This document shows positions 6,490 to 37,249 of a stretch of 64,000 nt of DNA, one piece after another (the first letter of the stretch is position 1; each line of letters starts with the position of its first letter). The DNA lies in the NCBI GenBank assembly GCA_016196035.1, contig JACPYM010000060.1, positions 62,001 through 126,000 of the forward strand, given 5' to 3'. The stretch is from Acidobacteriota bacterium (lineage in GTDB: Bacteria; Acidobacteriota; Blastocatellia; RBC074). The notes beneath the pieces are model-generated. The model was not told where the DNA came from. It saw only the letters and a program-made list of their open reading frames with translations, and made no database searches. The translations under genes were made by a program, and so were the position numbers.

Positions 6490-9115
<2,626 letters not shown>

Positions 9116-33927: not shown

Positions 33928-34560
33928 ATGGTAATCGAAAACCTCATTAAAGAATATGGCCTGTGGGCGGTCTTTTTCGGCGTGATGATCGAGGGCGATC
34001 TGACGCTGCTCTTAGCCGGGGTGTTGGCGCATCACGGGCTGTTCACCTTTGGCGAAGCGCTGTTGTGCAGCACGCTGGGCGGCGTCGTCGGCGATTCGAT
34101 CAGCTTCCTGCTCGGCTATCGCGGCAAAGAGTGGATCAAGAACAGCCATTTTTATCATCGCACCAAACCGCAATTGGAACGGCTGTCGGCGCGTTTCGGG
34201 GTCTATTCGATCTTCCTGGTCAAATATATTTACGGCTTGCGCACGGCCAGCGCTGTTTTCTGGGGTTTTGCGCACATGCGCTTTGGCCGCTTCGGGACGC
34301 TGACTGTGATAAGTTGTGCGGCCTGGGCGCTGATTTTGATCGGCATCGGTTACTCATTCAGCGGCGCGATTGAAGTCATCATCGGACGCGTGCAACGCAT
34401 CGGCTTGGTGCTGTTGATCGCGGTGCTGGTCGCGAGCGCGTTGTCGCTGGCGCTGTTCCTGCTCGAACGCTATGTCATTGGCCGCCGCGTGCCCGAAATG
34501 GAACCCCAATTGTTGAGCGACCGCGAAGAGGAAAATAAAAGTCTGAAGTCTGAAGTCTGA
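33928..34560 (+). CDS. DedA family membrane protein
   Basis: 210 residues from ATG 33928, where homology begins; the frame is open upstream without plausible protein. It has the VTT/DedA fold: [71 protein letters not shown], then C-terminal transmembrane helices (about 130-190). DedA proteins are inner-membrane, often linked to undecaprenyl-phosphate or phospholipid flipping. The last residues (KSLKSEV) and the stop are encoded by the TCTGAAG heptad repeat that starts at 34542. Confidence 0.85.
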
Positions 34561-34617
34561 AGTCTGAAGTCTGAAGTCTGAGGTCTGAGGTCTGAAGTCT
34601 GAGGTCTGAGGTCTGTA
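34542..34617. repeat. Tandem TCTGAAG/TCTGAGG heptad repeat
   Basis: Ten or so direct 7-nt units run from the 3' end of the DedA gene to the leader of the next gene. There is no inverted partner here; an inverted version is at 49664-49753. The repeat supplies the DedA stop codon and ends next to the AGGAG site of the GHMP kinase gene. Confidence 0.85.
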
Positions 34618-34628
34618 GGAGATCGGCA

Positions 34629-35627
34629 TTGATTATCGAAGCACAAGCACCCACGCGCATTGATCTGGCGGGCGGCACCGTGGACATCTGGCCGCTGTAT
34701 CTGTTTCACGAAGGCGCCCAGACGATCAATTTTGCGATTGATCAATACGCCCGTTGCCGCGTCGAAACGCGCGCCGACGGCAAGTTCGTCTTTGAATCGC
34801 TGGATCGTGGGACGAAGGTCGAAGTCGCCACCCACGCCGCCTTGCGCGATGAAGCCGAATTGCCGCTGATTTCCAAGCTGGTTTATTTCTTTAAGCCCGA
34901 AACCGGCTTGACCATCACGACCGATTGCATGGCTCCGGCGGGCGCGGGGCTGGCCGGTTCTTCGACGCTGAACATCGCGCTATGCGGCGCGCTGAACAAA
35001 CTGACCGGCGAACGCTTCAAGCTGGAACAACTGCCCTTCATTGCCGCCAATGTCGAATCGCAGGTGCTGGGCGTACCGGCGGGGTATCAGGATTATTTCC
35101 CGGCGACGTATGGCGCAGTCTCGCGTGTGCGCCTGCAAGTCGAAGGGGTGATCCGTGAAGCCATCGAAACCGACCTCGAACAACTCGAATCCCGCGTGGC
35201 GCTCTGTTACACCTACGCGCCGCGCAATTCCGGCATCAACAACTGGTCAATGTTCAAGTCGCACATTGACGGCGACAAACTGATTTTTGAGCGTTTCGAC
35301 AAAATCCGCGACACGGCGCTGAAGATGGCCGACGCCCTGAGCGCCAATGCCTTCGACCAAATCGGCGCGCTCTTTGCCGAAGAATGGGCCAGCCGCCGCG
35401 AATTGGTGCCCGGCATCACGACCGAATTCATTGACGAATTGGTGACGCTTTCCCAACGGCACGGCGCGCAGGCGGCCAAAGTTTGTGGCGCGGGTGGCGG
35501 CGGTTGCGTGGCCTTTTATTGCGCAGCCGGGCGCAAGTCCGATGTCGAACAGGCGTTAGCTGCGGCGGGCGGCCAGATCATTCCGTATCGTATTTCGCGC
35601 GCCGGCTTGCAAATCAACGTAGGCTGA
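34629..35627 (+). CDS. GHMP family sugar kinase
   Basis: 332 residues with a TTG start at 34629, placed by AGGAG at 34617-34621 and by the N-terminal match. It starts APTRIDLAGGTVDIWP, as in galactokinase/heptose kinase relatives, and carries the GHMP ATP loop PAGAGLAGSSTLNIAL (about 98-113). The C-terminal KVCGAGGGGCVAFY is the third GHMP motif. It most resembles the D-glycero-D-manno-heptose 7-phosphate kinase/fucose kinase group, but the exact sugar is uncertain. Cytoplasmic. Confidence 0.82.
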   Translation: MIIEAQAPTRIDLAGGTVDIWPLYLFHEGAQTINFAIDQYARCRVETRADGKFVFESLDRGTKVEVATHAALRDEAELPLISKLVYFFKPETGLTITTDCMAPAGAGLAGSSTLNIALCGALNKLTGERFKLEQLPFIAANVESQVLGVPAGYQDYFPATYGAVSRVRLQVEGVIREAIETDLEQLESRVALCYTYAPRNSGINNWSMFKSHIDGDKLIFERFDKIRDTALKMADALSANAFDQIGALFAEEWASRRELVPGITTEFIDELVTLSQRHGAQAAKVCGAGGGGCVAFYCAAGRKSDVEQALAAAGGQIIPYRISRAGLQINVG

Positions 35628-35636
35628 TCTCAAACA

Positions 35637-35718
35637 GGTAGGACAATCTGCCGAGGTTGTCTGGTCGTGGCGTAAGACGTCATTGCCCGGCGGGACAACC
35701 TCGGCAGGTTGTCCTACC
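35637..35718. repeat. 25-bp inverted repeat (one mismatch)
   Basis: Arms 35637-35661 and 35694-35718 start 10 nt after the GHMP kinase stop and end 39 nt before the selenoprotein start. It may act as a terminator for the kinase gene, though there is no U-run. The promoter of the selenoprotein gene would have to lie inside or beside it. Confidence 0.75.
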
Positions 35719-35757: not shown

Positions 35758-36396
35758 ATGCTCAAGCGTTGTTGCCTCGTCTTGCTTTGCTTGTTGCCGC
35801 TGGCCTGGCTCGGTTGTAGCGAGCAGAAAGAAGCGGATACCTCCGCACTGACGCGCCCCTTGCCGTCCGCGCCTTCGCCCACGCCCGCTCCGCACGCGAC
35901 TGATTTGAAGCGCGTGGTCAAAGGCACGACCGCGCCCGACTTCGCGTTGGAAGCGCCGGATGGCGAGACCTACAAGCTCTCCAGCTTCCGCGACAAGAAA
36001 TTCGTCGTGCTGGTGTTTTATCGCGGCTATTTCTGAACGGGCTGCCAGGAACAGCTAGGTAAGCTGAAATCATTGCTCTCGCCCGCCGAAAAACAAAACG
36101 TGCAGATTCTAGGCATCAGTCTGGACACCCACGAAGAGTCGCGCGTCATGGCCGAAGAGATTGCCAAACATCCGGGCCAACTCGATTTTCCGCTGCTGAC
36201 CGACGTTGAGCATCGCGTGGTGGACACCTACGGACTTTCCAATCCGGCGGAATTCAAAGCGGGCATTCCGTATCCATGTGTTTACGTGATCGGCAAAGAT
36301 GGCGTGGTGATAGATCGGTTCCTGGATGAAAGCGGCGTGCGCGCGACCAATGAACAGGTGCGCGCGATGCTGAAAGCCGCTGGTGCGGTGAGTTGA
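35758..36396 (+). CDS. Selenocysteine-containing peroxiredoxin-like lipoprotein
   Basis: 213 codons including an in-frame TGA at 36034-36036 read as selenocysteine (residue 93) and the true stop at the end. The ATG at 35758 gives a lipoprotein signal (residues 1-19, lipobox LAWLG-C), so the protein should be membrane-anchored outside the cytoplasm. After a Pro-rich linker comes a peroxiredoxin/AhpC-TSA domain: PDFALEAPDGETYKLSSFRDK, VVLVFYRGYF-U-TGC, ILGISLDTHEESR, FPLLTDVEHRVVDTYGL, PCVYVIGKDG. The U replaces the peroxidatic Cys of FYRGxWC, with a resolving-type Cys96 in a UxxC motif. Both halves share one frame with no other stop, and a SECIS-like hairpin follows the TGA. The likely role is peroxide or hydroperoxide reduction. 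Confidence 0.92.
36052..36066 (+). promoter_or_regulatory. Bacterial SECIS-like hairpin
   Basis: CAGCT (36052-36056), loop AGGTA (36057-36061), AGCTG (36062-36066). The stem begins 15 nt and the loop 20 nt after the UGA, and the second loop base is G, as expected for bacterial SECIS elements bound by SelB. It is read in frame as part of the coding sequence. Confidence 0.75.
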
Positions 36397-36407: not shown

Positions 36408-36506
36408 TGGCGGAGGCGTGTGGGAGTCGAACCCGACCTGCCGCAGCTACCGCTACGGCACAACGGTTTTGAAGACCGCACCCATCACCGGACAGGATGC
36501 GCCTCC
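36408..36506 (-). tRNA. selC: Selenocysteine tRNA, anticodon UCA
   Basis: 99 nt with encoded CCA. It has an anticodon loop CTTCAAA (UCA), a 6-bp D stem closed by the 4-nt loop CGGT (CCTGTC/GATGGG with wobbles), a 9-bp variable arm (TGCCGTAGC/GCTGCGGCA, loop GGTA), a TTCGACT T-loop, and an acceptor stem GGAGGCGC opposite ACGCCTCC before GCCA. The last acceptor pair and the T stem contain irregularities (C-A, and a bulged C). The long variable arm plus UCA anticodon identify tRNA-Sec. Its 3' end faces the selenoprotein stop, 11 nt away. Confidence 0.93.
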
Positions 36507-36578: not shown

Positions 36579-37004
36579 TCAAAGCATTGGTCGAATGGAT
36601 TGCGGTGTCTGCTCATCCCCAGGCTGAGCCAAGGCGACCAATTCGCGCAAGCCACAAGGCATCGCGCGGTATTTGGGCAACAACCCGGCCAGCAGGGGCT
36701 GGTTGCAACGGCTGGTTTCGACCAACAAGGGGATTTCGCTATGGCCCCGGCTGGCGCGGATGATATCGAGCACTTGAGGCAATTGCGCGGGATTGACATC
36801 AATTACCGCCAGCGCGTGTTCCGAGGCGCATTCGCCTTGCAATTCTTCCAGCGAACTCGCGACGTGAATTTCCACTGCTTCATACGCCAGTAAGGCGTGC
36901 AACCAATCCAGCCGCTCAGCGCAATCGCTGAAGAGCAACAGCGGGGTTTTATTGTGAGGGCGGGGATAATCGGAAACGGCATGACGCTGCATCAAGCTAG
37001 CCAT
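36579..37004 (-). CDS. Degenerate receiver-like domain protein
   Basis: 141 residues; ATG at 37004 behind AAGGAG. Pattern of a response-regulator receiver: LLLFSDCAERLDWLHALL, then LAVIDVNPAQLPQVLDIIR with a possible phospho-acceptor Asp, then IPLLVETS and a last helix LRELVALAQ. The acidic pair at the start is reduced to one Asp and the conserved Lys is not clear, so phosphorylation is uncertain. No output domain. It lies directly upstream of the tRNA-Sec gene on the same strand, with 72 nt between; they may share a transcript. Confidence 0.55.
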   Translation of the reverse strand: MASLMQRHAVSDYPRPHNKTPLLLFSDCAERLDWLHALLAYEAVEIHVASSLEELQGECASEHALAVIDVNPAQLPQVLDIIRASRGHSEIPLLVETSRCNQPLLAGLLPKYRAMPCGLRELVALAQPGDEQTPQSIRPML

Positions 37005-37249
37005 GGTAAAACTCCTTGGGGATGACAAGCTGATTAAATCGTCGGAGGATAGTTTCGGTGTGTAGTCAGCGAGACAGTTGCGGGTGTAATGGAGCGAGGA
37101 ACGCCGCCAGCTATTCCGTTTTTATCAATTGCTCAAATTTCTTTTGGGCAGGCACCACTGCCGCGCAGTTTAACCAACCACGCTGACGGCTGCAAACTAT
37201 TTTTCAGGCAATTTTTCAGGCTCGGGTTGAGCAGGAGTTCAAGCAGGTT

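Follow-up and report, generated by a model that had tools for sequence, protein, structure and literature searches.

A probable peroxiredoxin-fold selenoprotein with a UxxC motif encoded beside the tRNA-Sec gene in an Acidobacteriota genome

Gene organization of the locus

The window analysed here is a stretch of 64,000 nucleotides from the genome of an Acidobacteriota bacterium. Genes for a DedA-type (VTT) protein, a GHMP kinase, the candidate selenoprotein, tRNA-Sec, a small protein and MazG follow one another in this order (coordinates in Table 1). The candidate gene forms one frame from the ATG at 35758 to the TGA stop at 36394-36396, whose sole internal stop is the TGA at 36034-36036 (codon 93), and the peptide around this codon reads FYRGYF-U-TGCQEQL. 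Both the singly interrupted frame and the motifs before (FYRGYF) and after (TGCQEQL) the UGA had been described in an initial annotation of this DNA and are borne out by the sequence. An AhpC/TSA domain (Pfam PF00578, residues 56-185, E 5.8e-29) spans the TGA. The nearest downstream gene is that for tRNA-Sec (ARAGORN, Rfam), which lies on the opposite strand (36506-36408), and the convergent ends of the two genes are separated by ~11 nt.

Table 1. Features of the selenoprotein locus (positions in the window)
Feature	Position	Strand	Basis
Candidate selenoprotein gene: Prx-fold UxxC lipoprotein (predicted), 212 aa with Sec93	35758..36396	+	Frame, Pfam, homologues, AlphaFold model
Predicted signal peptide and lipobox, putative acylated Cys C20 (LAWLG/C)	35758..35817	+	Sequence, G004 orthologue; prediction
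In-frame TGA, probable Sec93 (UTGC motif)	36034..36036	+	Frame, homologue alignment, DNA pattern search
Cys96 codon, second residue of UxxC, peroxidatic Cys column of peroxiredoxins	36043..36045	+	Alignment
Candidate SECIS apical hairpin CAGCU(AGGUA)AGCUG, G at loop positions 2 and 3	36052..36066	+	Folding, homologue comparison
tRNA-Sec gene (selC) with a UCA anticodon, convergent with the candidate gene	36408..36506	-	ARAGORN; Rfam RF01852, 66.9 bits (gathering 47)

Read by eye, the N-terminus (MLKRCCLVLLCLLPLAWLGC20) contains a lipobox-like AWLG-C20, in which the Trp at -3 is unusual. The orthologue in another genus of the same family (G004) has the lipobox-like sequence VSTG/C, and in both proteins the lipobox-like N-terminus is accompanied by a Pro/Ser-rich linker and the residue after the Sec/Cys is T, not P. 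A paralogue encoded in the same genome (G000:C107) carries a plain signal peptide without a lipobox. The product of the window gene is probably exported and lipid-anchored at C20, as the initial annotation proposed in calling it an envelope-anchored lipoprotein; the lipobox is plausible, and the anchoring itself is read from the sequence only.

Selenocysteine-decoding machinery and the codon at position 93

The 9.6-Mb source genome encodes SelA (E 5e-143), SelB, which was identified via its winged helix, and SelD (E 7e-108; G000:C88, L005), the gene for which itself contains an in-frame TGA (motif UASK). All three genes that the initial annotation had suggested looking for elsewhere in the genome were thus found, and together with tRNA-Sec they equip the genome for decoding UGA as Sec.

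Homologues of the window protein were searched for in 58 related genomes. Exactly one in-frame TGA was frequent among them, and column 93 was occupied by Sec or Cys in every aligned UxxC/CxxC homologue, which is the outcome expected by the initial annotation for a selenocysteine position. A DNA pattern in which the middle codon was left free (FYRGxW-NNN-xxC) was also run on 147 genomes of the class, and the listed matches were tallied by hand. The free codon was TGA in 54 of the 63 matches, TGC or TGT in nine and any other codon in none, whereas the reversed pattern gave no matches in the same 147 genomes. This codon is therefore restricted to Sec and Cys. A contig scan with the single window protein as query found no relative, and an alignment-based scan, in which only Cys codons were used, returned only Cys forms and has no bearing on the frequency of Sec. 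Two or three distinct FYRGxWUxxC genes were present in several genomes of the class (e.g. G041, G026, G423, G455 and G463), and UxxC selenoproteins of the Prx fold therefore look abundant in the class.

A candidate SECIS element downstream of the UGA

The sequence CAGCT(AGGTA)AGCTG is present exactly at 36052-36066, and a 15-nt spacer separates the first base of the hairpin from the UGA; the stem, the loop AGGTA and the distance are all as first reported. As a single sequence, the hairpin is weak evidence. Its folding energy corresponds to z = +0.53, with 140 of 200 shuffles folding equally well; SECIS-like hairpins by the criteria applied here occur in 12% of shuffles, and a 5-bp Watson-Crick stem is found in 48 of the 576 synonymous encodings of QLGKL. 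Because the single-sequence fold is no better than those of shuffles, the hairpin alone proves nothing.

It is the recurrence of the hairpin in homologues that makes the predicted SECIS convincing. A hairpin is found at an identical distance in 13 Sec genes (the window gene included), and the GG of the loop is invariant. Covariation was tested with the 7-bp stem seen in paralogues, a structure derived from the same 13 sequences, which are related to one another. In this alignment, 94.5% of the cells were paired, and three of the seven pairs were changed on both sides. The covariation score (0.253 vs 0.101 in shuffles) was not attained by any slid version or in any of the 500 shuffles, while the number of pairs changed on both sides was matched in 51 of the 500. 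Because the hairpin shares sequence with the codons of QLGKLKS, a conserved peptide, its conservation could be partly at the protein level. In the G004 orthologue, which has Cys in place of Sec, the stem is broken (CAGCT..GGCTC). The 13 homologues and the covariation support the earlier suggestion of a bacterial SECIS located 3' of the UGA with a G early in the apical loop.

A syntenic Cys-encoding orthologue and the tRNA-Sec neighbourhood

The best homologue was that of G004 (G004:C152:8769-9377(-)), with 48-52% identity (52% in the aligned part). This gene likewise adjoins and converges with a tRNA-Sec gene (8563-8657(+)) and is flanked by a DedA-type gene and MazG, as in the window, and it carries TGC at the position of codon 93 (motif CTQC). 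The same gene thus occurs at one syntenic place by tRNA-Sec in two forms, one with Sec and one with Cys, with the putative SECIS intact in the former and broken in the latter, and the pair therefore offers a clean natural case for studies of Sec/Cys exchange.

Comparison with this orthologue gave dN/dS values of ~0.33 upstream of the UGA and ~0.23 downstream of it, which are a rough guide since dS exceeds 1.5 and is saturated. For the part after the UGA, dN was 0.40 and dS 1.75 (rough and likewise saturated), similar to the part before it. This pattern indicates that the downstream part is maintained as coding sequence under purifying selection.

In G003, the GHMP kinase gene abuts tRNA-Sec directly, with no selenoprotein gene in between, and the gene is likewise absent from the tRNA-Sec locus of G001; it was therefore either inserted at this site or lost elsewhere. 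In the tree, the window and G004 proteins form a branch of their own (support 100/98) within a wider clade of mostly Cys forms (82/95), and the Sec/Cys change may have taken place in either direction. One could speculate, although we regard it as rather unlikely, that some UxxC Prx-fold selenoproteins, lipid-anchored and with a diverged UTGC/CTQC site, form a subfamily of their own, that its gene arrived beside tRNA-Sec in an ancestor of both genera, and that a functional or transcriptional link to tRNA-Sec may exist.

Some further features of the neighbourhood were observed. The region between tRNA-Sec and MazG (36579-37028, minus strand) encodes a 149-aa protein with no Pfam match, and similar small proteins are encoded at the corresponding position in G001, G003 and G004. 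Between the GHMP kinase gene and the selenoprotein gene, an inverted repeat (35637-35718) has 25-nt arms (GGTAGGACAACCTGCCGAGGTTGTC) that are 96% complementary and 32 nt apart. A second pair is located on G000:C59 and single weaker copies occur elsewhere in the genome, and the repeat therefore appears to be a small dispersed repeat element. Minus-strand ORFs at 34354-34835 contain a repeated 14-residue peptide, suggesting that the DNA separating the DedA-type gene from the GHMP kinase gene harbours a short tandem repeat.

Active site and predicted function

The active-site columns were assigned by alignment with the true peroxiredoxins of the same genomes (TxxU and TxxC). The Pro, Thr, Cys/Sec and Arg of peroxiredoxins correspond to R89, U93, C96 and P173 of the window protein, respectively, so that only the Cys of the true peroxiredoxin set (Pro, Thr/Ser, peroxidatic Cys/Sec and Arg) is kept. 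U93 takes the place of Thr in the motif PxxxTxxC, and C96 is found at the peroxidatic position. The initial annotation had placed U93 at the peroxidatic Cys, an assignment that we reject on this alignment. The structural comparison agrees, as position 116 of the AhpE R116A mutant (4xih) aligns with P173 in the PDB alignment. In addition, F92 and T94 replace the W and P of most family members, which points to a diverged active site. The AlphaFold model has a Prx fold (mean pLDDT 87.5), and its best PDB matches are AhpE and other peroxiredoxins, with the ResA-type oxidoreductase 4nmu also among the matches. The site is a thioredoxin-like UxxC plus Pro, in which Sec occupies the place of the nucleophile in thioredoxin-type CxxC motifs; a thiol/selenol:disulfide oxidoreductase is therefore likelier than a peroxidase.

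Taken as a whole, the locus is best explained by a selenoprotein gene in which the UGA at 36034-36036 encodes Sec and whose product is thioredoxin-like with a Prx fold (probability approximately 0.9). The selenocysteine first proposed for this codon is strongly supported by the decoding machinery, column 93, the recurrent hairpin and the selection downstream. SelB and the tRNA-Sec encoded next door would decode the UGA at the hairpin, a step for which the comparison provides strong support, and the redox centre would consist of U93-T-G-C96 with Pro173. The selenolate of Sec93 may attack a disulfide or an oxidised substrate in the envelope. The mixed selenide-sulfide would then be resolved by C96, giving an internal Se-S bond that an external thiol donor would re-reduce; peroxide may be one of the oxidants, though this active site is not that of a peroxiredoxin. 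Provided that the protein is a selenoprotein, we consider such selenol/thiol:disulfide oxidoreductase chemistry fairly probable.

The principal alternative is a true selenoperoxidase in the envelope, in which H2O2 or lipid hydroperoxides would be reduced either by U93 or by C96, with U93 resolving in the latter case. The fold, the match to the peroxidase AhpE and the peroxidatic position of C96 are all consistent with this function, and Sec selenolates readily reduce peroxides. However, three of the four active-site residues of peroxiredoxins are missing, with R89, U93 and P173 in the places of Pro, Thr and Arg, and the true Sec-peroxiredoxin paralogues of the same genome, G000:C83 (L041; TGGU) and G000:C109 (L042; TPVU), have Sec in the column of C96. 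Of the envelope selenoperoxidase of the initial annotation, the selenoprotein part is thus supported and the peroxidase part is not, and we regard this function as possible at lower odds. The choice between oxidoreductase and peroxidase lies beyond what sequence can decide, the former being the likelier.

It is very improbable that the UGA is a real stop, whether in a pseudogene or in a Cys-encoding gene that was altered by nonsense mutation or misread in sequencing. The closest orthologue does have TGC, which a single base change interconverts with TGA, but the full Sec machinery, the hairpin that the Sec gene retains but its Cys orthologue has lost, the TGA at the same codon in most family matches, and the frame that stays open under purifying selection downstream led us to reject a plain stop. 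Reading of the UGA as Trp or Cys through genetic-code reassignment or an atypical tRNA was rejected as hardly credible, because the gene itself terminates in TGA, the canonical SelA/SelB/SelD/tRNA-Sec set is present and a SECIS-like hairpin lies at the expected place, while nothing specific speaks for it except that Cys would fit chemically.

Relationship to known families

Prx-like UxxC selenoproteins have been described since 2005. A 'Prx-like protein' with UXXC in place of the TXXU of Sec-peroxiredoxins is reported in PMC1088965. A 2026 review (PMC13188914, Table 1) lists a Prx-like thiol:disulfide oxidoreductase (PF00578, UxxC/UxxU) that is predicted with high confidence and whose function is predicted. 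The window protein has the AhpC/TSA domain and UxxC by which these oxidoreductases, with their widespread Cys forms, are defined. They have UPxC, in contrast to the UTGC, the predicted lipoprotein nature and the position beside tRNA-Sec found here. New, as far as our tools show, are this member, its diverged branch of predicted lipoproteins (UTGC motif), the pairing of a Sec with a Cys orthologue and the location beside tRNA-Sec. The window protein scored below every cut-off of the NCBIfam selenoprotein and peroxiredoxin models (best 54.4/140 bits; SelL_rel_redox 45.7/120; PrxU 43.1/270), and a well-supported selenoprotein that standard models leave unrecognised is thus added.

The paralogue G000:C107 (L040; FYRGYWUPWC) and its orthologues share the fold, the Sec column and the SECIS position with the window protein (37-41% identity), whereas G000:C107 has the Trp-Sec-Pro-Trp-Cys motif, lacks the lipobox and lies on a separate branch of the tree. 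Members of the peroxiredoxin-like family cd02970 presumably have a CxxC-type motif, with the second Cys matching the peroxidatic Cys. The selenoprotein motif given for this family is UxxS (PMC13188914, Table 1), in contrast to UxxC in the window protein. Sec-peroxiredoxins (Prx, TxxU, PF00578; same table) have the fold in common with the window protein, but their Sec occupies the peroxidatic column, three residues past U93. The best structural match is AhpE, a 1-Cys peroxiredoxin of Mycobacterium tuberculosis (1xvw and 4x1u; TM-score up to 0.87 by target length), which keeps the peroxiredoxin site with Arg116, whereas the window protein has U93, C96 and P173.
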